From Hyphomonadaceae bacterium (GTDB lineage Bacteria > Pseudomonadota > Alphaproteobacteria > Caulobacterales > Hyphomonadaceae), in the NCBI GenBank assembly GCA_947474455.1, contig CANJIL010000007.1, positions 1 to 64,000 on the forward strand: 64,000 nt of DNA, read 5' to 3'. The notes under the pieces are model-generated. The model was not told where the DNA came from and ran no database searches. It saw nothing but the letters and a program-made list of their open reading frames with translations. The position numbers and the translations under genes are program-made. Below are positions 2,111-63,079 of this stretch, in pieces. The first letter of the stretch is position 1. Each line of letters begins with the position of its first letter.

Positions 2111-3429
2111 AGCAGCATCGCTTCCGGCGTCTCGACGAACTGCTTGAAGGTCTGCAGCCAGCGTGCGCCCGTCGCACCATCGACGACGCGGTGATCGCAC
2201 GTGAGCGTCACCGTCATCACCGTGGCAACTTCGACATTTGAGCCTCGCACAACCGCACGCTTTTCTCCCGCGCCGACCGACAGGATCATGCCTTCCGGCG
2301 GATTGATGATCGAGGCGAACGACCGGATGCCGAACATCCCGAGGTTCGAGATCGAGAAGGTGCCGCCCATATATTCCTGCGGCTTCAGCTTCTTGTCCCG
2401 CGCCCGCGCCGCCAGATCTTTCATCTCCGCCGCAATCTGCGCCAGGCCCTTCGTCTGGGCGTCGCGCACCACTGGCGTGATGAGCCCGCCCGGAATGGCA
2501 ACAGCTACCGAGACGTGCGCCGCCTTGTGCTGTGCAATACCCTTGTCGCTGAAGCTGGCGTTGGCGTCCGGATGCGCCATCAACGCCATCGCGCTCGCTT
2601 TGATCAGCATGTCGTTGACCGACACCTTCACGCCGGCCTTCTCGCCCGCCTCGTTGATGCGCACCCGCGCTGACAGCAGATGGTCGATTTCAAGATCGAT
2701 CGTGAGCGGAAAGTGCGGCACCTGCATGAACGACTGCGTCAGCCGCCGCGCCGTAACCTTGCGCACACCATCAAGAGGAATCAGGTCGTAGCTGTCCGGC
2801 GCATAAATCCGGTCATCCAGTACCGCCGGTTCGATAAGGCTTGTGACGCCGCCGCCAACCGCCGGCGCCGGCTTCGCGGCACCGTCCTTCGGCGCTTTCA
2901 GAACGTCGCTCTTGATGATCCGCCCATGCGGTCCCGAGCCTTTGAGCGCGAGAAGATCAATGCCTTCCATTTTGGCGAGCCGCTTCGCCAGCGGCGATGC
3001 GTTCACGCGTTGTCCACTCCCTGCGGCAACCGCCGGGGATGGTTGATTGGCCCGGGCAGGCGAGGATGCAGAGCTCGCAGCTGCTGCCGGAGCAGCAGGT
3101 GGCGCCGCCTTGACGGCCGTTGCCGCCAAAGGGGCCTTGGCCGTCTCGGCCTTCGCGCCACCGCCATTCTTCGCAGGCGCCTCGCCCTCTCCGGTAAGCT
3201 CCGCGATCACTGCGTTGACCTTCACGCCTTGCGCGCCTTCCTCAACCAGAAGCCTGGTGACGGTGCCCTCATCAACCGCCTCGACCTCCATCGTCGCCTT
3301 GTCGGTCTCGATCTCGGCAATAATGTCGCCCGGCTTGATCCTGTCGCCGACCTTCATATGCCACTTGGCAAGGTTCCCCTCCTCCATAGTGGGCGACAGC
3401 GCAGGCATGGTGATTGAGATCGCCATCAT
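2107..3429 (-). CDS. pdhC: Pyruvate dehydrogenase E2, dihydrolipoyl acetyltransferase
   Basis: Lipoyl domain ([15 protein letters not shown]), peripheral-subunit binding domain, catalytic DHRVVDGA motif. Start moved to [18 protein letters not shown], giving an ATGA overlap with pdhB. Confidence 0.95.
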
Positions 3430-4871
3430 TCCTGCTCCACGTAGCAAACCTTCTTCGCCGCCGCGACGATGTCAGCCGAATGCGGCAGCGACAGCTTTTC
3501 GAGGTTGGCGGCATACGGCAGCGGCACGTCTTTCTGAGCAACGCGCATGGGCGGCGCATCGAGAAAGTCGAACGCATGCTCGGTCACCGCCGCAGCGATC
3601 TCGGCGCCAACGCCAAAGAAGCGCCAGCCCTCTTCGCAGCAAACAATGCGGTTGGTCTTCTTGACACTCTCGATCACCGTCGCCGTATCGAGAGGGCGCA
3701 ACGTGCGCAGGTCGATCACCTCCGCTTCGATGCCGATTCCCGCCAGTTCCTCCGCCGCATCCAGCGCGAACTTGACCATTCGCGAATGCGCCACCAGCGT
3801 GACGTCCGTACCCGCGCGCCGGATCCGCGCCTTGCCGATCGGCAGCACGAAATCCTCAACCTGCGGCACGTCGAACTCAACGCCATACATCAGCTCGTGC
3901 TCGAGGAAGACAACCGGGTTTGGATCGCGGATGGCGGCTTTCAACAGACCCTTGGCATCAGATGCATCGTAAGGCGCGATCACTTTGAGCCCCGGGATCT
4001 GGCCATACCACGCAGAGAAGTCCTGACTATGCTGCGCGCCGACACGCGACGCCGCGCCATTCGGCCCGCGGAACACTATTGCGCAACCCATTTGGCCGCC
4101 CGACATGTAGAGCGTCTTGGCCGCCGAGTTGATGATGTGGTCGATGGCCTGCATCGCGAAGTTGAATGTCATGAACTCCACGATCGGCTTTAGCCCGCCA
4201 AACGCTGCGCCCACGCCGAGACCCGCAAAGCCATACTCCGTGATTGGCGTATCGATCACCCGCCGGTCGCCGAACTCCTCCAGCAACCCGCGCGAAACTT
4301 TGTACGCGCCCTGATACTGTCCGACCTCCTCGCCCATCAGGAACACGGTCTCGTCGCGCCGCATCTCTTCTGCGATCGCGTCGCGCAGAGCATCCCTAAC
4401 GGTTGTTTTGGCGTAGGTCACGCCTTCAGGCAGCGCAGGATCGTGCAGCCCTTCGGTTGCGGCGATCTTCTGTTCCGGCGCACGCAGGCGATGCCCATCA
4501 TTCCGCACCTTCTGCTCGGCCGGCGCTTCATCAGGCTTTCCGCCCGCCGTGTCTGCATTGCCATCGGCCCGTGTCTGCACCTCGACTTCCTTCGCCGTCC
4601 TGCCCTTGCCGTTGGCTTTCGGCGCGCCTTCTCCTTCGCCATTCAGGACGGCGATCAGCGCGTTGACCTTCACGCCTTCCGTCCCCGCAGGAATGACAAG
4701 CTGCGAGATGACCCCCTCATCGACCGCCTCGACTTCCATCGTAGCCTTGTCGGTCTCGATCTCGGCGATCACATCGCCGGGCTTCACGGTATCGCCTTCG
4801 TTCACCAGCCACTTGGCCAGCTTGCCCTCTTCCATCGTGGGCGAAAGCGCAGGCATCAGAATGTCGGTCAT
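3426..4871 (-). CDS. pdhB: Pyruvate dehydrogenase E1 beta with N-terminal lipoyl domain
   Basis: Lipoyl domain followed by E1-beta ([20 protein letters not shown]...). Start at [16 protein letters not shown] gives an ATGA overlap with pdhA. Confidence 0.95.
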
Positions 4872-48198: not shown

Positions 48199-49650
48199 TC
48201 AACCGCCCGATGCGCGGGCGGCGGTTTCAAGCAGCATCTGGATGGTGACCGTCAGGATCGGGAACATCAGGAGGCTCGTCACCAGCACGATAATGCCGAT
48301 GCTGATATCCGTCTTGTCGAGTTCTCCCGCCGACGGTTTCATGAACATCGCCCAGACGAGGCGCAGATAGTATCCCAGCGAGACCACACTCGACAAAGCG
48401 CCGACCAGGACCAGCCACGTCATGTCCGCCTGCAAGCCGGCCTGGAACACCTGCAGCTTGCCCCAGAAGCCTGCGGCCGGCGGAATGCCTGCTACCGAGA
48501 AGATCAGAACGAGCAAGCCAAGCGCCATGCCCGGTTTCTGCTTCACGAGACCATTGAGATCCGAGACGTTGTCGATCGCCCTGCCGCCGCGGCGCAGTGC
48601 CAACACGCCACCGAACATGCCGAGCGTCGCGATCACGTAGAGGGTCATATAGACCAGCACCGACGCGGCGCCGTTACCAACGCCAGCTGCAACACCAATG
48701 AGCGCGAAGCCGACGTTGGAGATCGAGGAATAGGCCAGAATGCGCTTGATGCTGTTCTGCATAAGCGCGCCGAAGGCGCCGATCAACATCGACGCTGCCG
48801 AGATGATCGAGATGATCTGCCGCCAGGCTTCTTCATGCGGCCCGAACGTCACGAACATCACATGCGCCAGCAGCGCTACTGCCGCGATCTTCGGCGCCGT
48901 CGAGAAGAACGCCACGACCGGTGCAGGCGCGCCCTCGTAGACGTCCGGCGTCCAGATGTGGAACGGCGCAGCGGAAGCCTTGAACGACAGTCCGCAGACC
49001 ACGAACACCAGGCCGAAGGTCAACCCAACCGAAATCGGCGCCGCAGCGATCACCGCATAGGCAGTGCCACCCGTAAACCCGTAGATCAGAGACGAGCCAT
49101 AAAGCAGGAGGCCGGACGCCAGTGCGCCCAGCACGAAATACTTGAGGCCCGCTTCCGCCGACTTCAGGCTGTCGCGCCGGAAGGCCGCGAGCACGTAAGA
49201 CGACAGGCTCAGCGTTTCGATGCCGACATACAGCGTCATCAGGTCATTGGCGGACAGCATCAGGCCCGCGCCCAGCGAACCGAACACGATAAGCAGCGGA
49301 TACTCATACCGCTCCATCTGCGACGTCTTCAGGAAGCCGCCCGACATCAACAGCGCCAACGCCGCGAGCGCATAGGTCACTGTTTTGGCGAACAGCGTGA
49401 ACATCGTCACGCGATAGAGCCCGTCCGGGGATGTCGCGCTGGCGAACGCGGCGATGCCGTCAGCCGCCCCCGGATGCTGGAACTGGTAAGCGGTCAGAAC
49501 GGAAGCCGCGACCAGCGCCACAGCGGCAAGCAGGCGAATGAGGCCCGCGGTCCGGTCGCCACCGATCGCGCCAAGCAGAAGCCCGACGAGACCGAAGCCG
49601 GCAAGCGCCGCCTCCGGGATCGCGTTGTTGATGTCGGCGAGGAAATCCAT
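48199..49650 (-). CDS. nuoN: NADH-quinone oxidoreductase subunit N
   Basis: 483 aa multi-TM; YSSISNVGFALIG; operon context. Confidence 0.95.
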   Translation of the reverse strand: MDFLADINNAIPEAALAGFGLVGLLLGAIGGDRTAGLIRLLAAVALVAASVLTAYQFQHPGAADGIAAFASATSPDGLYRVTMFTLFAKTVTYALAALALLMSGGFLKTSQMERYEYPLLIVFGSLGAGLMLSANDLMTLYVGIETLSLSSYVLAAFRRDSLKSAEAGLKYFVLGALASGLLLYGSSLIYGFTGGTAYAVIAAAPISVGLTFGLVFVVCGLSFKASAAPFHIWTPDVYEGAPAPVVAFFSTAPKIAAVALLAHVMFVTFGPHEEAWRQIISIISAASMLIGAFGALMQNSIKRILAYSSISNVGFALIGVAAGVGNGAASVLVYMTLYVIATLGMFGGVLALRRGGRAIDNVSDLNGLVKQKPGMALGLLVLIFSVAGIPPAAGFWGKLQVFQAGLQADMTWLVLVGALSSVVSLGYYLRLVWAMFMKPSAGELDKTDISIGIIVLVTSLLMFPILTVTIQMLLETAARASGG

Positions 49651-49659
49651 GTCTCGTTC

Positions 49660-51168
49660 CTACTGTCCGACCTGCCCGATCATCCGCAGGACTTCCAGGC
49701 TTGATCCTTTGGTGAGATCAAAGATCAAGCCGGGGAAGACGCCGAAGACGAGGGCGCTGATCGCCAGCAGCCCTAGGATGAAGAATTCGAGTGCGGTGAC
49801 GTCCTTGATGTCGAACAGCTTCTCGTTGGTCATCTCGCCGAACACCGCCCGGCGATAGAGTGTGAGCATGTATACGGCGGAAAGGATGACGCCCAGCGCC
49901 GCGCCCGCCGCCGCCCAGGTCGAGGCCTGGAAGCCGCCAACCATCGTCAGAATCTCGCCCACGAAACCTGACGTACCCGGCAATCCTACGTTGGCCATCG
50001 AGAACAGCATGAACAGCGCCGCATAGACCGGCATACGGTGAACGAGGCCGCCGTAGAAGGCGATCTCGCGCGTGTGCATCCGGTCATAGATCACGCCGAC
50101 GCAGAAGAAGAGCGCGCCGGAGATGACACCATGCGAAATCATCTGGAAGATCGCGCCCTGGATGCCGATCTCGTTGAACGAGAAGATGCCGAGCGTGACG
50201 AAGCCCATGTGCGCGACTGACGAATAGGCCACCAGCTTCTTGATATCGGTCTGCCGGAACGCAACCAGCGAAGCATAAACGATGGCAATGACGCTGAGCG
50301 CGAACATCAGCGGCTGGAACAGCTGCGACGCGTGCGGGAACATCGGCAGCGAGAACCGCAGGAAGCCGTAGCCGCCCATCTTCAGCAGCACTGCCGCCAG
50401 CACCACCGAGCCCGCCGTCGGCGCCTCGACGTGCGCATCAGGCAGCCACGTATGAACCGGCCACATCGGTAGCTTCACCGCGAATGACGCAAAGAAGGCC
50501 AGCCACAGCCATGTCTGCACATCAGGCGAGAATAGCGGCGCGCCCGTCACCGGATGCACGCCGGCCTGCAGTACGACAACATCCGTCGTGCCGGCCGTAA
50601 TCGCCATGTAGATCAGCGCGACCAGCAAAAGCAGCGAGCCGAGCAGCGTGTAGAGGAAGAATTTGAAAGCCGCATACAGCTTGTTCTTGCCGCCCCAGAC
50701 GCCGATGATCAGGAACATCGGGATCAGGCCGCCCTCGAAGAAGACGTAGAACAGCACCAGATCCAGCGCGCAGAAAACGCCGATCATCAGCGATTCAAGC
50801 ACGAGGAAGCACATCATGTATTCAGCGAGCCGGTCCTCGATCGACCTCGAGGACTGCAGCACGCACAGCGGCGTCAGCGCGGTCGTCAGCACGATCAGCG
50901 CGATCGACATGCCATCGACGCCGAGCTTGTAGGACGAGCCGCCAAACCAAGCGACGTTCTCGATGAACTGATAGCCGGTCTTGCCAGCGTCAAAGCCGGC
51001 CAGCGCGACGAGCGAGGCGCCGAGCGTCACGATTGACGTCAGCAGCGCGATGCTCTTCGACGCGCTCGACGCCAGATTGGCGCCGCCGACCATGCGGACA
51101 CCAAGGATCATCAACGCCCCGATCAGGGGGATGAAGATCGTGATCGAGAGAATGGGCAAGCCGGCCAT
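49660..51168 (-). CDS. nuoM: NADH-quinone oxidoreductase subunit M
   Basis: 502 aa; [41 protein letters not shown]. Confidence 0.96.
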
Positions 51169-51171
51169 GCG

Positions 51172-53256
51172 TCAGCGCCCCTGCCCGAACATTACGAAGG
51201 CCACGAAGATCACCGCCGAAATCAGGACCACGAAGGCGTAGTGGAAAATGTATCCTGTATGCAGCTTCGACAGTCCGCCGGCGCTGGCCTTGGTCAGACC
51301 TGTCATGCCATCCGGGCCGAGCCCATCGATGATCTTCTTGTCGCCGATCTTCCAGAACAGGTCGCCCAGCAGCGCTGTGCCCTTTACGAAGACGAACTTG
51401 TAGATCTCGTCGAAATACCACTTGTGCGACAGGAACGAGTGCATCGGCCCGCCATTACGCGCCATCTTCCGCGGGATCTGCGGCGCGAGCAGATAAAAGA
51501 TCACTGCGAAGATCAGACCGCTGATCCAGCAGATGGCGGGCGCCAGCAGCACCCAGAGCGGAACCTCGTGCCGCTCATGCAGCACATGATTGTCAGGCGC
51601 GTTGTAGATCGCGCTGCCCCAGAAGGCGGCTTCGTGGTGATCGACCATCGCATCGTAGAATACGAGGCCGGCCAGAACGGCGCCGACTGAAAGCAGGATC
51701 AGCGGCACAGCCATCACCATCGGTGGGTCGTGCGCATGATCGTAGGTATGGTGATCCGCCCGCGTCTTGCCCTCGAAGGTCATGAACATCAGGCGCCAGG
51801 AGTAGAACGACGTCAGGAAGGCCGCGCCGATCGAGAGCCAGAAGGCCAGCGGCGCATAGGCGTCGTGCGAGGCAAACGCGCTTTCGATGATGGCGTCTTT
51901 CGAGAAGAAGCCAGCGAAGCCGAGATGCAATCCATCAACCGCCGGGATGCCGACGCCGGTCAACGCGAGCGTGCCGATCAGCATCATCGCCCAGGTCAGC
52001 GGCATCTTCTTCCGCAGGCCGCCCATGTTCCGCATATCCTGCTCGTGGTGCATGCCGTGGATGACCGAGCCGGCCGAGAGGAACAGCAGCGCCTTGAAGA
52101 AGGCGTGCGTGAACAAGTGGAACATCGCCGCTTCGTAGGCGCCAACGCCGGCGGCAAAGAACATGTAGCCGAGCTGCGAACACGTCGAATACGCAACCAC
52201 GCGCTTGATGTCGTTCTGCGCAAGGCCGACCGTGGCGGCGAAGAAACAGGTCACCGCGCCGATGATCGTGATCATATTCGCCGCGACAACCGTGTGCTCG
52301 TAGATGTACGAGCAGCGGCAGACGAGGAACACGCCGGCGGTCACCATGGTGGCAGCGTGGATCAGCGCGGAGACCGGCGTTGGGCCTTCCATCGCATCCG
52401 GCAGCCAGGTGTGCAGGAAGAACTGCGCCGACTTGCCCATCGCGCCGATGAACAGCAGCACGCCGGCCACTTCGAGACCCCAGACATGGATGCCGAGGAA
52501 GTCGAACGCCACATCCTGGATCGCGACCGGCGCGCCCGAGCCGCCGACCAGGACGGGGGCGTTGTTGACGATGACATTGAACACCGTGTCGAAGCCGACC
52601 GACGAGAAATGGTGGATGCCCATCGCGGCATAGTCCACGCCGGCAAAAGGCTGGATCATGTAGACCAGCGCCATGATGCCGAGCGCGAAGCCGAAGTCGC
52701 CGACGCGGTTCACCACGAAGGCCTTGATGGCCGCATCGTTGGCGGAGGGTTTCTTGTACCAGAACCCAATCAGCAAGTAGGACGCGAGACCAACGCCTTC
52801 CCAGCCGAAGAACAGCTGGATGAAGTTGTCCGCCGTTACCAGCATCAGCATCGCGAAGGTGAACAGCGACAGGTAGGCGAAGAAGCGCGCCCGGTGCGGA
52901 TCGTCAGCCATATAGCCGATGGAGTAGACGTGCACGAGCGCCGACACGCTCGTTACGACGAACAGCATGGTGATCGACAGGCTGTCGAGCCGGATCGCCC
53001 AGTCGACAACAAACGTGCCGACGTCAAACCAACGCGACAGGACGATCGTGTGCGCATGTGCGCCACCCTCGGGGTGATGACCGAAGACCTGCCCGAAGAA
53101 CAAGAGGCCCGCCAGCACGGCTGCCGAAACGACCAGCACGGTCGTAATAGCCATAGACCCCTTGTCGCCAAGGAAGCGCTGGCCAAGGCCGGCAATCGCC
53201 GCGGCGATGCCCGGCGACAACACAATGATGATGGCCGCGATTTCCTGGAAGGTCAC
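51172..53256 (-). CDS. nuoL: NADH-quinone oxidoreductase subunit L
   Basis: 694 aa; WLPDAMEGPTPVSALIHAATMVTAGVFLV, YSTCSQLGYMFFA. Confidence 0.97.
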   Translation of the reverse strand: MTFQEIAAIIIVLSPGIAAAIAGLGQRFLGDKGSMAITTVLVVSAAVLAGLLFFGQVFGHHPEGGAHAHTIVLSRWFDVGTFVVDWAIRLDSLSITMLFVVTSVSALVHVYSIGYMADDPHRARFFAYLSLFTFAMLMLVTADNFIQLFFGWEGVGLASYLLIGFWYKKPSANDAAIKAFVVNRVGDFGFALGIMALVYMIQPFAGVDYAAMGIHHFSSVGFDTVFNVIVNNAPVLVGGSGAPVAIQDVAFDFLGIHVWGLEVAGVLLFIGAMGKSAQFFLHTWLPDAMEGPTPVSALIHAATMVTAGVFLVCRCSYIYEHTVVAANMITIIGAVTCFFAATVGLAQNDIKRVVAYSTCSQLGYMFFAAGVGAYEAAMFHLFTHAFFKALLFLSAGSVIHGMHHEQDMRNMGGLRKKMPLTWAMMLIGTLALTGVGIPAVDGLHLGFAGFFSKDAIIESAFASHDAYAPLAFWLSIGAAFLTSFYSWRLMFMTFEGKTRADHHTYDHAHDPPMVMAVPLILLSVGAVLAGLVFYDAMVDHHEAAFWGSAIYNAPDNHVLHERHEVPLWVLLAPAICWISGLIFAVIFYLLAPQIPRKMARNGGPMHSFLSHKWYFDEIYKFVFVKGTALLGDLFWKIGDKKIIDGLGPDGMTGLTKASAGGLSKLHTGYIFHYAFVVLISAVIFVAFVMFGQGR

Positions 53257-53268
53257 GTTCCTGCTCCC

Positions 53269-53586
53269 CTAACCGCGCAGCACGTTGACATCTTCCACCG
53301 CGATCTCGCCGCGGTTGCGGAAGTAGACGACAAGAATGGCAAGGCCGACCGCAGCTTCGGCCGCCGCGACGGTCAGAACCAGCATCGCAAAGACCTGGCC
53401 CATGATCGTGCCATTGAAGACCGAGAACGCCACGAGGTTGATATTCACCGAGAGCAGGATCAGCTCGATCGACATCAGGATGACGATAATGTTCTTGCGG
53501 TTCACGAAGATGCCGAACACGCCAATGGTGAACAGCGCCGCAGAAACAGCCAGATAGTGCCCGAGAGTAAGTTCGAGGCCCGCCAT
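53269..53586 (-). CDS. nuoK: NADH-quinone oxidoreductase subunit K
   Basis: 105 aa; [17 protein letters not shown]. Confidence 0.96.
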
Positions 53587-53588
53587 GG

Positions 53589-54182
53589 TCAGATCCCCTG
53601 CCCCGGACGCACGTCCTTGAGTTCGACGGCGTCCTTCCGTTTGCGTCCGGTCTGCTGTGCGATGTTCTGCCGTTTGACTGTCGGCCGTGCGCGCAGCGTC
53701 AACACGATCGCCCCGATCATCGCGACCAGCAGCACGATCCCCGACATCTGGAACAGCAGCAGATAATCCGTGTAGAGCACGCGAGACAGCGCCTCGGCGT
53801 TGGTCGCGGCACCCGGATTCGCGTTGAACGTCGTACCACCGCCAAAGGTCGCGGCCGCCGCAACGATCCCGATCTCCGCCAACAGCGCCAGCGCCACCAG
53901 CACGCCGACCACAAGATAGTTCTGGAAGCCCTGCTTCAGCTCGGCGAAGTCGATGTCTAGCATCATCACGACGAACAGGAACAGCACGGCCACGGCACCG
54001 ACATAGACGACGACCAGCAGCATCGCGAGGAACTCGGCCCCGATCAGCACCAGTAGACCTGCCGACGTGAAGAACGCCAGGATCAGCCAGAGCACCGAGT
54101 GTACCGGGTTACGCGCGGCGACCACGAACAACGCCGACAGCACGACGATGGTCGAGAGGATGTAGAAAGCGATCAGCGCCAT
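53589..54182 (-). CDS. nuoJ: NADH-quinone oxidoreductase subunit J
   Basis: 197 aa; [54 protein letters not shown]. Confidence 0.95.
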
Positions 54183-54279
54183 GCTCTAGCCTCCCTCTTT
54201 CTTTGGTCCAAAGCGCCCCGGACGGGGCAGTGAAAGTAAGTCCCCAAGACCCGACTCGCCCCCCGCGAGCCGCGCCCTT

Positions 54280-54765
54280 CTATCTGTAGCGAGCGTCAAG
54301 TTCCAGATTGCGGGCGATCTCGCGTTCCCAGCGATCGCCGTTCTCCAGAAGCCGTTCTTTGTCGTAGTAGAGCTCCTCACGCGTTTCCGTGGCGAACTCG
54401 AAATTCGGGCCTTCGACGATGGCGTCCACCGGGCAGGCTTCCTGACAGAAGCCGCAGTAGATGCACTTCACCATGTCGATGTCATATCGGGTTGTGCGGC
54501 GCGAGCCGTCTTCGCGCGGCTCGGCCTCGATCGTGATGGCCTGCGCAGGGCAGATCGCCTCGCAAAGCTTGCATGCGATGCAGCGCTCTTCCCCGTTGGC
54601 GTAGCGGCGCAGCGCATGCTCGCCGCGGAAACGGGGAGACAATGGTCCCTTCTCGAACGGGTAGTTCAACGTCGCCTTCCGCGTAAAGAACTGTCGCATC
54701 GACAGCGCAAACGCACTGAGGAAGTCCGTCAGGAGAGCGCCCCGAATGGCTTGGCCGATCGACAT
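54280..54765 (-). CDS. nuoI: NADH-quinone oxidoreductase subunit I
   Basis: 161 aa; two 4Fe-4S motifs [16 protein letters not shown] and [16 protein letters not shown]. Confidence 0.97.
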
Positions 54766-54766
54766 A

Positions 54767-55975
54767 CTAGCTCCTCGCCCTGTCGCGATATTCTGCGAGG
54801 CTCACCTTGCCGTCGTTGTCCGTATCCACGCCCGACGGCAGAATCACTGCGGCCAGTTCAGGCGCTTCGAGATATCCGCTACTGTCGGCGTCGAGCCGGT
54901 CGAATTCCTGCCGTCCCGAAGCATTCTGGAATGTCACATAGGCCGAAACGATCACGACCGCGACCAGAGAGGTCGGCAGGAAGATCTTCCAGCCCAGCCG
55001 CATCAGCTGGTCATAGCGGTAGCGCGGCACGATCGCCTTCACCATCGCGAAGAGGAAGAAGAAGAACGTCGTCTTGACGATGAACACCAGCAGCCCGCCC
55101 AAGCTCAGCAGCCATTCCGGCAGACCGTCCACGCCCGGGATCGGCAACGGCATGTGCCATCCGCCGAAGAACAGGATGGTCAGCATCGAGCACATCAGCA
55201 CGATCGAGACGTATTCCCCGATCATGAACATGAGGTACGGCGAAGACGAGTATTCGACCTGATAGCCAGCCACGAGTTCCGATTCAGCCTCGGGCAGGTC
55301 GAAGGGCGGACGGTTCGTCTCGGCGAGCGCCGAGATGAAGAAGATCACGAACATCGGGAACATGACGAAGATCGTCGGGAACGCGAAGGCGTGCCAGTTC
55401 CAGATGCCGCCCGCCTGGTTCTCGACGACGTCGCTGAGATTGAGCGACCCCACTAGCAGCAGCACCGTCACGATCACGAAGCCGATCGAGACTTCATACG
55501 ACACCATCTGCGCGGCAGAGCGCAGGCCGCCGAGGAACGGATATTTCGAGTTGGAGGCCCAACCGCCCATGATGATGCCGTAGACGCCCAGCGACGACAC
55601 AGCGAACAGATACAGCACGCCAACATTGAGATTGGAGATCACCCAGCCCGGCGCGACGGGGATTACAGCCCATCCGACCAGCGCCAGCGTCAGCGTGATG
55701 ACCGGAGCGAGCAGAAACACGGTCTTGTTCGCGCCCGCCGGAATGATCACTTCCTTCAGCACGAACTTGATCAGGTCGGCGAAAGATTGCAGCAGGCCGA
55801 ACGGCCCCACCACGTTCGGGCCCTTGCGCAACTGCACCGCCGCCCAGACCTTCCGGTCGAACAGCAGCAGAAACGCGATCAGTACGAGAAGGATCACGAC
55901 GAAGGTCACGATCTGCAGCACGGCTAGGCCGATGCCGCCCCACATTCCGCCGCCCCATTGGAAGAGGTTTTCCAT
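54767..55975 (-). CDS. nuoH: NADH-quinone oxidoreductase subunit H with C-terminal EF-hand pair
   Basis: NuoH core ([26 protein letters not shown]-type motif, [21 protein letters not shown]) followed by [12 protein letters not shown] and [14 protein letters not shown]-hand loops before the stop at 54767. Confidence 0.96.
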
Positions 55976-55985
55976 CGCGCCCCCC

Positions 55986-58097
55986 CTATTCCGCCGCAAC
56001 TGCAGGGCTCACGCCTGCAGCAAGCTCGGCGCATTCCGCCATGGTGCGCGAAGCGCGCGCGATCGGATTGGTCAGGTGGAACGCCTTGATCGGCGTTGTG
56101 AACGCAGCTGACTGCAGGCTTCCGGCCGTTCCATAAGGCGGCGCAACGCTGCCGCCATGCGTGCCGGGCGCAAAGTCGAGTCCGAGGAACGAGTTATGGT
56201 CGGCGCCAAGCTTCGCGCGGAGCTGCGCAAGCGTGTCATAGGGCAGCGTATTACCGACATAGGCCGACAGCGCGCGAATGATCGCCCAGTCTTCGCGAGC
56301 ATCGCCTTTCGGCGCGACCGCGCGCTGCGCGCGTTGCACGCGGCCTTCAGTGTTGACGTAGGTGCCCGACTTCTCGGTGTACGCCGCACCAGGCAGAATC
56401 ACGTCCGCGCGGTGAGCGCCGTTGTCGCCGTGGCTGCCGATATAGATAACGTTGGCCCTGCCAAGCTTGGACGTGTCGATCTCGTCGGCACCCAAGAGTA
56501 GCACCGTCGTGATGTCGCCCGACTGCGCGCCTGCAATGATACCGGCAACGTCCTTGCCTCCCGCCGACGGCAGGAAGCCCATGTCGAGACCGGCAACGCG
56601 CGACGCGGCCGTATGCAGAACGCTGAAGCCGTTCCAACCTCCCTTGAAGGCGCCTGCGGCCGCCGCCATCGCAGAGACGGCATGCAGCACCGCCGCGCCA
56701 TCGGACCGCGTCAACGCGCCCTGACCGACAATGATCAGCGGACGCTTGGCGTTGGTCAGTGCATCGAACACCGGATGCCCGGCCTTCAGGTCTTTCAGGC
56801 TGTCAGGACCGGTGCCGAGATAGTTGTAGTCGAACGTCAGGTCGACCCGCTCGCCGAGCAGGGCAATCGGAACCATACGCAACCACGCCTTGCGCAGGCG
56901 TGCATTCAGCACAGCTGCTTCCTTGCGCGGGTTCACTCCGATCAGGACGATCGCATCCGCCTCGTCGATGCCCATGATGGTCGAGTTGAAGAGGTAACTC
57001 TCACGCGGCAGTTTCGAACCGTCCGCCGCCATTCCAAGCTTGGCGCCATCCTGCCGGCAGTCAATCGACTTCACGCCCAGCGAACCGGCGAGATCTTTGG
57101 CCGCCTTCATGCTCTCGGCGTCGGCCAGATCGCCCGCGATCACGCCGATCGCATCGCCCGAAACCTTCAGCATCTCGGCCGCGCGCTTTAGCGCGGCATC
57201 CCAGGTCGCGGCCTTCAGGGCGCCATTCTCGCGCACATAGGGCTTGTCCAGCCGCTGCCGGCCAAGGCCATCCCACACGAAGCGCGTCTTGTCCGAGATC
57301 CACTCTTCGTTGATCTCTTCATTCACGCGCGGAAGGATGCGCATCACGGTTGGACCACGCGCATCGACGCGGATTGCCGAACCCAGCGCATCCATCACGT
57401 CGATGCTCTCGGTCTTGCGCAGCTCCCAAGGGCGTGCATTGAACGCATACGGCTTCGACGTCAGCGCGCCGACGGGACAAAGGTCGATCACGTTGCCCGA
57501 CAGCTCAGATGTCAGAGATTTCTCAAGATAGGTCGTGATCTCGGCGTCCTCGCCACGGTTGGCGAGACCAATCTCGTCCACGCCCGCCACTTCCGCTGCA
57601 AAGCGTACGCAGCGAGTGCACTGGATGCAGCGGGTCATGATCGTTTTGACCAGCGGGCCCATATATTTGTCGTCGACCGCGCGCTTGTTCTCCCCGTAAC
57701 GCGAGGCGGCGCGGCCATAACCCATCGCCTGGTCTTGCAGGTCGCACTCGCCGCCCTGATCGCAGATCGGACAATCGAGAGGATGGTTGATGAGCAGGAA
57801 TTCCATCACGCCATTACGCGCCTTGATGGCGCGCGGCGACTTGGTGGAGATCTCGTGCGGCGTGCCGTCCTTCTTGGGCGCCATGTCGCCTACGGTCTGG
57901 GCGCACGACGCGATCGGCTTCGGCGCGCCAACCCAGTCGACCAGGCACATGCGGCAGTTGCCGGCAATCGAGAGGCGCTCGTGATAACAGAAGCGCGGAA
58001 TTTCGGCGCCGGCTAGCTCGCAGGCCTGCAACAGCGTATACGTCTTCGGCGCATCCACCGCGACGCCATCGACAACAAGTTTGACGGTGTCGGTCAT
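55986..58097 (-). CDS. nuoG: NADH-quinone oxidoreductase subunit G
   Basis: 703 aa; 2Fe-2S domain [25 protein letters not shown], molybdopterin oxidoreductase-like domain. Confidence 0.96.
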
Positions 58098-58100
58098 GCC

Positions 58101-59408
58101 CTACTCCGCCGCCAGTGTGTGGCCCTGAACGTGAGGGCGGCCCTGACGATAGTTCGTGATGCGGTCTTCGATCTCCTGCCGGAAGTGCCGGATCAGGCCC
58201 TGGATCGGCCACGCGGCAGCGTCGCCCAGCGCGCAGATCGTGTGGCCTTCGACCTGGCTTGCTACATCAAGCAGTGTGTCGATTTCGGAGACCTCGGCTT
58301 CGCCCTTCACCATCCGCTCCAGCACGCGCCACATCCAGCCCGTGCCTTCACGGCATGGCGTGCACTGACCGCAGCTCTCGTGCTTGTAGAAGTACGCGAT
58401 CCGCGCAATCGCACGAACAAGGTCCGTCGACTTGTCCATCACGATGACCGCCGCCGTGCCGAGCCCCGACTTAACGTCGCGCAGCGCATCGAAATCCATC
58501 AGCACCGTGTCGCAGATATCCTTCGGGATCATCGGCACCGACGAGCCACCCGGAATAATCGCCTTCAGGTTACTCCAGCCGCCGCGCACACCGCCGCAAT
58601 GCTCTTCAATCAGCGTCTTGAGCGGGATCGACATCTCTTCTTCGATATTGCACGGCCGCTCGACATGGCCGGAGACGCAGAAAACCTTGGTGCCCGTATT
58701 GTTCGGACGGCCAAAGCCCGCGAACCAGCTAGCGCCTCGACGCAGGATAGTCGGCGCAACCGCGATCGACTCCACATTGTTCACGGTCGTCGGACAGCCA
58801 TAGAGGCCGGCATTGGCCGGGAATGGCGGCTTCAGACGCGGCTGGCCCTTCTTGCCTTCAAGGCTTTCAAGCAGCGCAGTCTCTTCACCGCAGATATAGG
58901 CCCCCGCGCCATGGTGACAGTAAATGTCGAAATCGAAACCCGAACCGCACGCGTTCTTGCCGACCAGTCCGGCCTTGTAGGCCTCTGCGATCGCTTCCTC
59001 GAGGCACTCGCGCTCGCGAATGTATTCGCCACGCAGATAGATATAGCATTTGGAGGCGCGCATCGCGAAGGACGCGATCAGGCAGCCCTCGATCAGCAGG
59101 TGCGGATCATGGCGCATGATGTCCCGGTCCTTGCAGGTGCCGGGTTCGGATTCATCCGCGTTGACGACGAGATAGTGCGGCCGGTCCTTCACGACCTTCG
59201 GCATAAAGGTCCACTTCAGACCGGTCGGGAAGCCCGCCCCACCGCGTCCGCGCAGGCCTGACGCCTTGATCTGGTCGCAGATCCACTCCGGTCCGAATTG
59301 CATCAGCTCCTTCGTGGAGTTCCATGCCCCGCGCTGCTTCGCGGCTTCAAGTCGGAAGTCATGGCGGCCGTAGAGGTTAGTGAAGATGCGGTCTTTATCG
59401 AGAAGCAC
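58101..59408 (-). CDS. nuoF: NADH-quinone oxidoreductase subunit F
   Basis: [34 protein letters not shown] start at 59408 preceded by GGAGGAG; the ORF-track start at 59483 is over-extended. Confidence 0.95.
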
Positions 59409-59631
59409 GATCGCGCTCCTCCATGCTTGCACGAATAAAAACGATGACGGCTGGAAGCGAGAAGCCAAGCCCGCCCAAAACACCGATGGCGATCCAGATC
59501 CAGTTGCTGGTCATCCCATAGGCGATCAGACCCGCGATGGTGGCGAGAGCTTCCAGGAAGAAAGCCAGCATCAGCTTCTTCGCAGCGACCTGTTTGGCGC
59601 TTGGTTCCGACATGATGGCGATTTCCCTCAT
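59395..59631 (-). CDS. Small two-TM protein between nuoE and nuoF
   Basis: 78 aa [82 protein letters not shown] overlap with the nuoE stop and 3' end overlapping the nuoF start. Confidence 0.75.
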
Positions 59632-60305
59632 GTCTGCGCCGGCTCTGGCGGTTTCGGCGCGTTCGGGACGACGCTCAACGGCTTGGCTTTCGAGCCGTCA
59701 TAAAGCGCTTCATCGGCCAACGAAGTCGGCGGACCAGCTGGCGCAGACGTCTGCCGCTCCACATACGTGCCCGGCTGAGGATCCTTGCCCGACGCGAAAT
59801 CATCGATCAACTGCTCCAGCGTTTCGATGCTCAGGTCTTCGTAATAGTAGTCGTTGATCTGGATCATTGGCGCGTTCACGCAAGCGCCCAAGCATTCCAC
59901 CTCGACCCACGAAAACTTGCCGCCGCCCGACACATGGCCCTTCGGCCCGATCTTGCGCTCGCAAAAATCCTTCAGCTTGTCCGCCCCGCGCAGCATGCAC
60001 GGCGTCGTGCCGCAAACCTGAAAGTGATACTTCCCAACCGGCTCGAGGTTGAACATCGTGTAGAAGGTCGCGATCTCGTAGACGCGGATGTAAGTCATGC
60101 CAAGCCGATCGGCGACCGCGCGCAATGCCGGCTCCGAGAGCCAGCCATTGTTCTGCTTCTGCGTGACCCACAGCGCCGGGATGACGGCCGACGCGCGGCG
60201 CTCACTGGGATATTTGCGCTCCCACCACGCGATCTGGTCTTCGCTCGCTGCGTTGAAAGCGAACGGCTCGTGGTGTTCGGGATGATGGAAACGGCGGTGG
60301 CTCAA
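59628..60305 (-). CDS. nuoE: NADH-quinone oxidoreductase subunit E
   Basis: 225 aa; thioredoxin-like 2Fe-2S protein, [23 protein letters not shown]. Confidence 0.96.
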
Positions 60306-61510
60306 CGGTCGACCTCCCCGAACACGATGTCGAGCGAGCCCAGGATAGCCGACACGTCAGCGAGCATATGGCCGCGGCACAGGTGATCCATCGCGTGAAG
60401 GTGGGCATAGCCCGGCGCCTTGATCTTCAGACGATACGGACGATTGCCGCCATCGGTCACGAGATAGACGCCAAACTCACCCTTCGGCGCCTCGACGCAG
60501 GCATAGGCCTCGCCGGCGGGCACGTGGAAACCTTCGGTGTAGAGCTTGAAGTGATGGATCAACGCTTCCATCGATGACTTCATCTCGCCACGGCGCGGCG
60601 GCGCATACTTGGAATGTTCCGGCAGAACCGGCCCAACCGGCATCTTGTCGATGCACTGCTTGATGATCTTGATGCTCTCGCGCATCTCCTCGACGCGGCA
60701 GAGATAGCGGTCCCAGCAGTCGCCGTTCTTGCCGACCGGAATTTTGAAGTCGAGTTCCGAGTAGACTTCATAAGGCTCGGCCCGGCGAAGATCCCACGCC
60801 AGACCCGATCCACGCACCATCACGCCTGAGAAGCCCCAGGCCAGCGCGTCCTCAACCGACACGACGCCGATGTCGACGTTACGCTGCTTGAAGATGCGGT
60901 TCTCGGTGACCAGCGTCTCGATATCGTCTAGCGTCTTGAGGAACGGACCGCAGAATTTGTGGATGTCTTCCACCAGCTCCGGCGGCAGGTCCTGGTGAAC
61001 GCCACCCGGCCGGAAGTACGCCGCGTGCATCCGCGAACCGGACGCGCGCTCGTAGAACACCATCAGCTGCTCACGCGGCTCGAAGCCCCACAGCGGCGGG
61101 GTCAGCGCGCCCACATCCATCGCCTGCGTCGTTACGTTCAGCAGGTGCGAAAGCAGGCGACCAATCTCGGAGAAGATCACGCGGATATACTTCGCGCGCG
61201 CCGGCACTTCGATACCCGCCAGCCTCTCGATGGCGAGGCAGTAGGCGTGCTCCTGGTTCATCGGCGCGACATAATCGAGCCGGTCGAAGTAAGGCAGCGC
61301 CTGCAGGAATGTCTTGTACTCGATCAGCTTCTCGGTGCCGCGGTGAAGCAGCCCGATATGCGGATCGACGCGGTCCACGATCTCGCCGTCGAGATCGAGC
61401 ACAAGGCGAAGCACGCCGTGCGCAGCCGGGTGTTGCGGCCCGAAATTGATCGTGAACTTGCGATCGTCGAGATCGAGGTCAGCGGACTTGTGATTGATGT
61501 CGTCGGCCAT
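60302..61510 (-). CDS. nuoD: NADH-quinone oxidoreductase subunit D
   Basis: 402 aa; [31 protein letters not shown]-terminus. Confidence 0.98.
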
Positions 61511-61512
61511 GG

Positions 61513-62139
61513 CTACTTCTTCGCCTCGCCGGCTTTCTCATCGCCCGGGATAACGGCTTGCATACCTTCCCATGGCGAGAGGAAATCGAAGTTGCGGTAT
61601 TCCTGGACCAGCCGCACCGGTTCGTTGATCACGCGCTTCTGAGCTTCGTCATAGCGAACCTGCACCCGGCCCGTCAGCGGGAAGTCCTTGCGCAACGGAT
61701 GTCCTTCGAAACCATAGTCCGTCAGGATGCGGCGCAGATCCGGATGGCCTGAGAAGATCACGCCATACATGTCGAACGCCTCGCGCTCGTACCAGTTGGC
61801 GACGGGAAACACGCTCGCCACGCTCGGCACAGGCGTCGCTTCGTCGGTGCGGATCTTCACGCGGATACGCTGGTTCAGCCGCATCGACAGCATATGATAG
61901 ACAACCTCGAAGCGCTCCGGCTCGGTCGGGTAATCGCAAGCGCATAGATCAACCAGCGTCTCGAACCGGCACTGGCTGTCGTCTCGCAGGAATTCGAGCA
62001 GTTTCACGATGCCACCGCGGTTCGCGATCACCGTCATTTCGCCGACCGCTACGCGCACGTTCGAGATCGCGCCCTTCTGGCTCTCTTCCAGATGGATCCT
62101 CAGCTCGGAGATCATTGAGGCGCGAGAGGGAGCACTCAT
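61513..62139 (-). CDS. nuoC: NADH-quinone oxidoreductase subunit C
   Basis: 30-kDa subunit motif [40 protein letters not shown]. Start MSAPSRASM at 62139 overlaps the nuoB stop. Confidence 0.96.
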
Positions 62140-62705
62140 CGTTCGATGCTCCCTTCGCGGCGGATCTTCTTCTGCAGCTGTAGAAGTCCGTAGAGCAGCG
62201 CCTCTGCGGTCGGCGGGCAGCCTGGAATATAGATATCCACAGGCACGATCCGGTCGCACCCGCGCACTACGGCGTAAGAATAGTGGTAATACCCGCCGCC
62301 ATTGGCGCACGAGCCCATCGAAATCACGTAACGTGGTTCCGGCATCTGATCGTAGACCTTGCGGAGGGCGGGCGCCATCTTGTTGGTCAGCGTGCCGGCG
62401 ACGATCATCACGTCGGACTGCCGTGGCGAAGCCCGCGGCGCAGCGCCAAAGCGCTCCATGTCATAACGCGGCATCGACGCCTGCATCATTTCCACCGCGC
62501 AACAGGCGAGACCAAACGTCATCCACATCAGCGAGCCAGTGCGCGCCCAGGTTATAAGGTCATCCACCGCCGCAACGACGAAGCCCTTGTCCGCTAGCTC
62601 GTCGGAGAGGCCAGTCAGATATGGATCGCTCGGCTTAACCAGCGCCGCGCCCGCAGTCCGCGCAACCGACGCAGCGGCGCTTTCACTAACCTTGGGCTGC
62701 GCCAT
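62136..62705 (-). CDS. nuoB: NADH-quinone oxidoreductase subunit B
   Basis: [62 protein letters not shown]. Start MAQPKV at 62705. Confidence 0.97.
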
Positions 62706-63079
62706 CACTGCCACTCCAGCGCGCCACGGCGCCATTCATAGACGAAGCCGATGGTCAGAACGCCCAGGAAACCCATCATCGACCAGAAGGCCGGCAGGTT
62801 CCCCTCCGCCACCTGGAACACCCAGGGGAACAGGAACGCGACTTCGAGGTCGAAGATGATGAAGAGGATCGAGACGAGGTAGAATCGCACATCAAACTTC
62901 ATGCGTGCGTCGTCGAACGCATTGAATCCGCACTCATACGCGGACAGCTTCTCCGGATCGGGTTTCCGCGGCGCCAGAAGACTCGAGGCGACCAGGAAAA
63001 GCAGACTGATAGCTATGGCCAGCCCAAGAAAAATCACGACCGGCAGATATTCGACGACGAGCGTCTGCGCGTCTTCCAT
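62705..63079 (-). CDS. nuoA: NADH-quinone oxidoreductase subunit A
   Basis: 124 aa; [44 protein letters not shown]. Confidence 0.97.

Follow-up and report, generated by a model that had tools for sequence, protein, structure and literature searches.

The 64,000-nucleotide window (the whole stretch of DNA analysed) carries a nuoA-N operon on its minus strand, and the features discussed here are collected in Table 1. Within this operon, nuoH runs from an ATG at position 55975 (protein start MENLF) to a TAG at 54767–54769. Its product belongs to the NuoH family, as residues 21–343 constitute a full-length NADHdh domain (Pfam PF00146, 402.4 bits, E = 1.6e-120) and the gene is flanked by nuoG and nuoI in the nuo operon. 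The closest solved structure is 8qby_H (E = 3.7e-114 over residues 19–350). Beyond the last transmembrane helix, TM8, the frame continues into a tail that begins where NuoH ends in its tail-less relatives; members of the same genus without the tail stop a few residues past TM8. The extension is in frame, and its junction with nuoI is as the original prediction described (TAG, 1 nt, ATG).

Table 1 Features of the nuoH locus, with positions in the window.
Feature	Position	Strand	Basis or remark
nuoA-N operon (NADH:quinone oxidoreductase)	48199..63079	(-)	ORFs; subunits matched in relatives
nuoI	54280..54765	(-)	Begins 1 nt past the nuoH TAG; the tail thus lies within an intact nuo operon
nuoH	54770..55975	(-)	Membrane subunit H of complex I; 402 aa including the C-terminal EF-hand tail
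TM8, last transmembrane helix, residues 324-351	54923..55006	(-)	Hydropathy; the 8qby_H alignment ends here
C-terminal tail Q350-S402, EF-hand pair, ~50 residues	54770..54928	(-)	Pfam EF-hand_5, AF2 tail model
EF-hand loop 1, residues 362-373	54857..54892	(-)	Ligand positions 1, 3, 5, 9 and 12 all oxygen donors in nine sequences
EF-hand loop 2, residues 384-395	54791..54826	(-)	D1, D5, G6, S9 and E12 invariant in nine sequences

The tail had been proposed to hold a pair of canonical EF-hand loops, and both the Pfam scores and the conservation of the metal ligands confirm this. On the whole NuoH protein EF-hand_5 scores 26.3 bits, against a curated cut-off of 25.9, and on the isolated tail it reaches 33.9 bits (E = 1.8e-8), with EF-hand_1 and EF-hand_6 also above their cut-offs. 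Two pattern-fitting loops arose in 0 of 200,000 shuffles of the tail which, together with the Pfam scores above cut-off, rules out a chance likeness to EF-hands. An EF-hand loop has oxygen ligands at positions 1, 3, 5, 9 and 12, Gly at position 6 and a hydrophobic residue at position 8, and both loops follow this rule in nine genomes, the sole departure being an Asp at position 6 of loop 1 in L007. We see that the only variation at the ligand positions among the nine full sequences is D/N at position 3, and that D1, S5, E9 and E12 of loop 1 are invariant. The loop-to-loop spacing is 22 in 9/9 tail sequences, compared to 24 and up in EF-hand ORFs elsewhere in these genomes.

An AF2 model of the tail alone, built with the nine sequences, shows the helix-loop-helix unit twice, and both loops contain short strands (pLDDT 69, pTM 0.53). 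When this model was compared with the PDB using Foldseek, the best-ranked 50 matches were all EF-hand proteins or designs derived from them, including calmodulin, CDPK, calcineurin B and parvalbumin (best E 0.026, probability 1.0; none below 0.001). With a sequence profile of the tail, PDB hits at E ≤ 0.01 numbered 253 distinct sequences, and the 60 of them listed are almost all EF-hand proteins. These models and profiles indicate, with moderate confidence, that the tail is predicted to fold as an EF-hand pair. Compact bacterial EF-hand pairs, namely same-family ORFs and lanmodulin, share with it the 12-residue loops, the predicted helix-loop-helix pair and the short spacing, but the NuoH tail is fused to a core membrane subunit of the respiratory chain, where these other proteins are free or periplasmic. 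Lanmodulin (6mi5_X) is also among the few solved structures that match over both loops and have a linker about as short, and the acidic residue at position 9 of loop 1 is invariant, as might suit a metal other than Ca2+, such as a lanthanide or Mn2+. However, the hallmarks of lanmodulin are a Pro at loop position 2 and an Asp at position 9, and both are missing in 9/9 tail sequences: at position 2, loop 1 has A/T and loop 2 has T/V/R/A, while position 9 is E or S. The Ser at position 9 of loop 2 is moreover found in many ordinary Ca2+ EF-hands. The lanthanide reading was set aside on account of the missing hallmarks, and we consider it very unlikely that the tail binds another metal in place of Ca2+.

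The tail is present in 10 of the 15 genomes of one genus of uncultured 'Hyphomonadaceae'. An ordinary tail-less NuoH is encoded in G002, G009, G011 and G014; nuoH was not found in G005, and the tail of G007 is found on a contig fragment, apart from the remainder of its nuoH. The named records are uncultured 'Hyphomonadaceae' or Alphaproteobacteria MAGs, with lake Erken in at least one title. In 8 of the 9 further tail-bearing genomes, the tail sits at the end of nuoH, directly ahead of nuoI. A frame error had been judged unlikely from the gene junction, and this is now excluded by the nine further genomes with the tail and by codon-level purifying selection; presence in ten genomes likewise rules out an assembly artefact. 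The family has nine other genera, and their 90 genomes yielded no NuoH-linked tail. Wider surveys, which overlap in genomes, took in 385 genomes of the class, 399 of the phylum and 398 of the order, and no listed NuoH match from outside the genus spans the EF-hand region; these surveys cover best matches only, with a strict threshold for phylum and order, and a divergent fusion in another class may escape them. The few listed matches that run past TM8, of which some were inspected, represent stop read-through or a short unrelated tail. A sample of unusually long matches and frames (L107–L114) ends in stops or short non-EF tails, and NuoH EF-hand fusions elsewhere in Alphaproteobacteria were rejected for the matches listed. 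L107 (G295) is an alphaproteobacterial NuoH with a different charged C-terminal extension, KAPKDSDRMNEKVSVVIEQTLEKKI, that is without an EF-hand loop.

In a tree of concatenated Nuo proteins the ten tail bearers form one clade with a support of 100; its sister is G011, followed by G009 and G002/G014, all without a tail. As the bearers are monophyletic and their nearest sister lacks the tail, a single gain within the genus is the simplest history, in which the tail would have replaced the short end that relatives have just past TM8. Loss in the relatives is disfavoured, because the bearers are nested among tail-less members of the genus and no NuoH tail was found in genomes outside it. Alongside the gain, NuoA, NuoJ, NuoK and NuoN show only a few coinciding substitutions, which may simply mirror phylogeny. 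NuoL of the window (51172–53256, minus strand) is a short form, as it is in G010; in most tail-bearing relatives (records compared: L077, L079, L080, L081, L083, L084 and L091) it is about 60–70 aa longer and contains an insertion rich in histidine, for example HAHHDDHSHAGDHAHDHSHDHAHAK in L079.

Some copper-monooxygenase-like proteins of the genus (L035, L038 and L060, the last of which matches Cu2_monoox_C) also end in EF-hands. The last loop of L060, in its C-terminal EF-hand (FDKLDANKDGALEAPELAVV), is the best non-NuoH match to loop 1 within the genus and makes this protein a possible donor of the tail, but it supplies no loop 2. Compact EF-hand loops with a spacing of 21 also occur in one frame of the viral contig L050 (about 2980–3580) and are 54% identical to the NuoH tail over 39 residues.

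The history of the tail since its gain can be read from its codons. Averaged over non-independent pairs, and hence as a descriptive measure and not a formal test, pN/pS is 0.05 for the ten ligand codons, as against 0.47 for the rest of the tail and 0.09 in the core of NuoH. Loop positions 1, 3, 5, 6, 8, 9 and 12 are more conserved than random tail columns (p = 0.0025). The ligand codons have thus been under strong purifying selection since the gain while the remaining tail drifted, a pattern that we read as a selected metal site on a tolerant scaffold. Among the observations that the original prediction named as speaking against it, the lack of an EF-hand HMM hit is excluded by the EF-hand_5 match to the tail, and a lack of conserved loop residues by ligands that are conserved wherever the tail exists; absence from close relatives was borne out only in that the tail is clade-specific. 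The restriction to one clade, and the fact that the tail overall evolves faster than the NuoH core, could also describe an EF-hand fragment that was fused by chance and has no role in complex I. Against this, the ligands are kept across species-level genomes while adjacent positions vary. Since a useless tail would lose its ligand positions, we regard such a neutral add-on as highly improbable.

The likely side of the membrane was deduced from homology and hydropathy. In mammalian ND1, Arg274 forms a hydrogen bond with quinone (PMC9120487). By alignment offset, this residue corresponds to K313 of NuoH, which adjoins the TM7–8 loop PRYRYDQ, and hydropathy puts TM8 alone between that loop and the tail. 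With the loop at the quinone end and one helix leading from it to the tail, the tail would lie on the opposite face. It should accordingly be in the periplasm, at the outer 'heel' below NuoH and away from the quinone pocket. The earlier placement of NuoH/ND1 at the quinone site stands for the subunit as such; the tail, coming after TM8, is expected on the periplasmic side and not beside the quinone pocket. As periplasmic Ca2+ is environmental, a structural Ca2+ clamp would be likelier than regulation by cytoplasmic Ca2+. The original prediction had suggested Ca2+-dependent regulation or stabilisation of complex I, and a periplasmic position favours the stabilisation half.

Our preferred reading, to which we assign a probability of roughly 55%, is that the tail is a Ca2+-binding EF-hand pair on the periplasmic end of TM8 that braces the heel of complex I. 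Both loops would load Ca2+ from the periplasm, taking up two ions, and the loaded tail would fold into a small rigid domain. This domain may then cap or brace the outer heel, made up of NuoH with its neighbours NuoA and NuoJ, and the bracing would aid the assembly or stability of complex I, a role that separate accessory subunits have in mitochondria. There, NDUFA8 and NDUFA13 sit on the outer (intermembrane-space) face beside ND1, and their loss leads to assembly defects (PMC8762328). They differ from the NuoH tail in being separate proteins with unrelated folds, and NDUFA8 is stabilised by disulfides, not by Ca2+. Solved NuoH, ND1 and Nqo8 structures (8qby_H, 7nyh_H, 4he8_H) share the core domain, the single nuo-operon copy and the quinone-site loops with our protein, but none matches the EF-hand tail, and no alignment to them extends beyond residue 350. 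In Thermus, NuoH (Nqo8) is also extended C-terminally at the heel, by a ninth TM helix (PMC8762328) that differs from the EF-hand tail. In E. coli complex I, NuoG holds a Ca2+ believed to keep the G-loop stable, divalent ions increase both activity and stability, and C-terminal extensions of NuoB, NuoI and NuoF overlap in position with the accessory subunits found in other species (PMC8357420). These are likewise lineage-specific additions to core subunits that make extra contacts, with one structural Ca2+, but they are not EF-hands and belong to the peripheral arm in the cytoplasm. A Ca2+-stabilised NuoH tail would resemble NuoG by analogy of working only. In plants and fungi, respiratory NADH dehydrogenases of the external NDH-2 type bear EF-hands on the outer side; these enzymes are single-polypeptide flavoenzymes, unrelated to complex I. 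Two observations weigh against the bracing role: the surface of the tail outside the ligands drifts (pN/pS 0.47), as would not be expected of an extensive, conserved contact with another protein, and the substitutions in NuoA, NuoJ, NuoK and NuoN that coincide with the gain are few.

EF-hand pairs are frequent binders of partner helices, and the hydrophilic, acidic character of the tail (net -5) could suit the docking of some other periplasmic or membrane protein, such as a supercomplex partner or an assembly factor, instead of a brace for complex I itself. However, a candidate partner was not found, and the non-ligand surface of the tail is poorly conserved. We consider docking of this kind decidedly unlikely.

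Moved to the periplasm, the regulation half of the original prediction would make the tail a Ca2+ sensor, whose occupancy alters TM8, a helix with its inner end at the quinone channel, and so tunes complex I to external Ca2+. The TM7–8 loop that precedes TM8 sits at the quinone end, and Caulobacter has a reported Ca2+-responsive periplasmic EF-hand protein (PMC13171946). The full-length NuoH model also predicts the tail as a direct continuation of TM8, with TM8 and the start of the tail forming one helix (residues 321–362), but this continuity comes from a low-confidence model (pLDDT 39) that is too poor for placing the tail on complex I. In addition, two canonical sites that face environmental Ca2+ may often be saturated. 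Overall, a sensor seems unlikely, and it seems quite unlikely that a metal-sensing domain was gained on the outer face through which external Ca2+ sets the activity or coupling of complex I via TM8. If true, the sensor would be the first case of an EF-hand-controlled complex I.

NuoH is among the most constrained of respiratory proteins, and complex I core subunits seldom gain domains. We found no description of NuoH or ND1 with an EF-hand in the open-access full-text literature, which agrees with the earlier statement that no Ca2+-binding domain was known for this subunit. The NuoH core and the EF-hand pair are each known, and it is their combination that appears to be new. As a recent fusion of single origin it offers a natural experiment, with tail-bearing and tail-less species within one genus, and a comparison of these bears on the bracing of complex I at its outer face and on a possible influence of outside Ca2+. 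In the braced form, a single bacterial polypeptide would do what accessory subunits do in stabilising mitochondrial ND1. In short, Ca2+ from outside the cell probably helps to hold complex I together in these bacteria, or may tune it.
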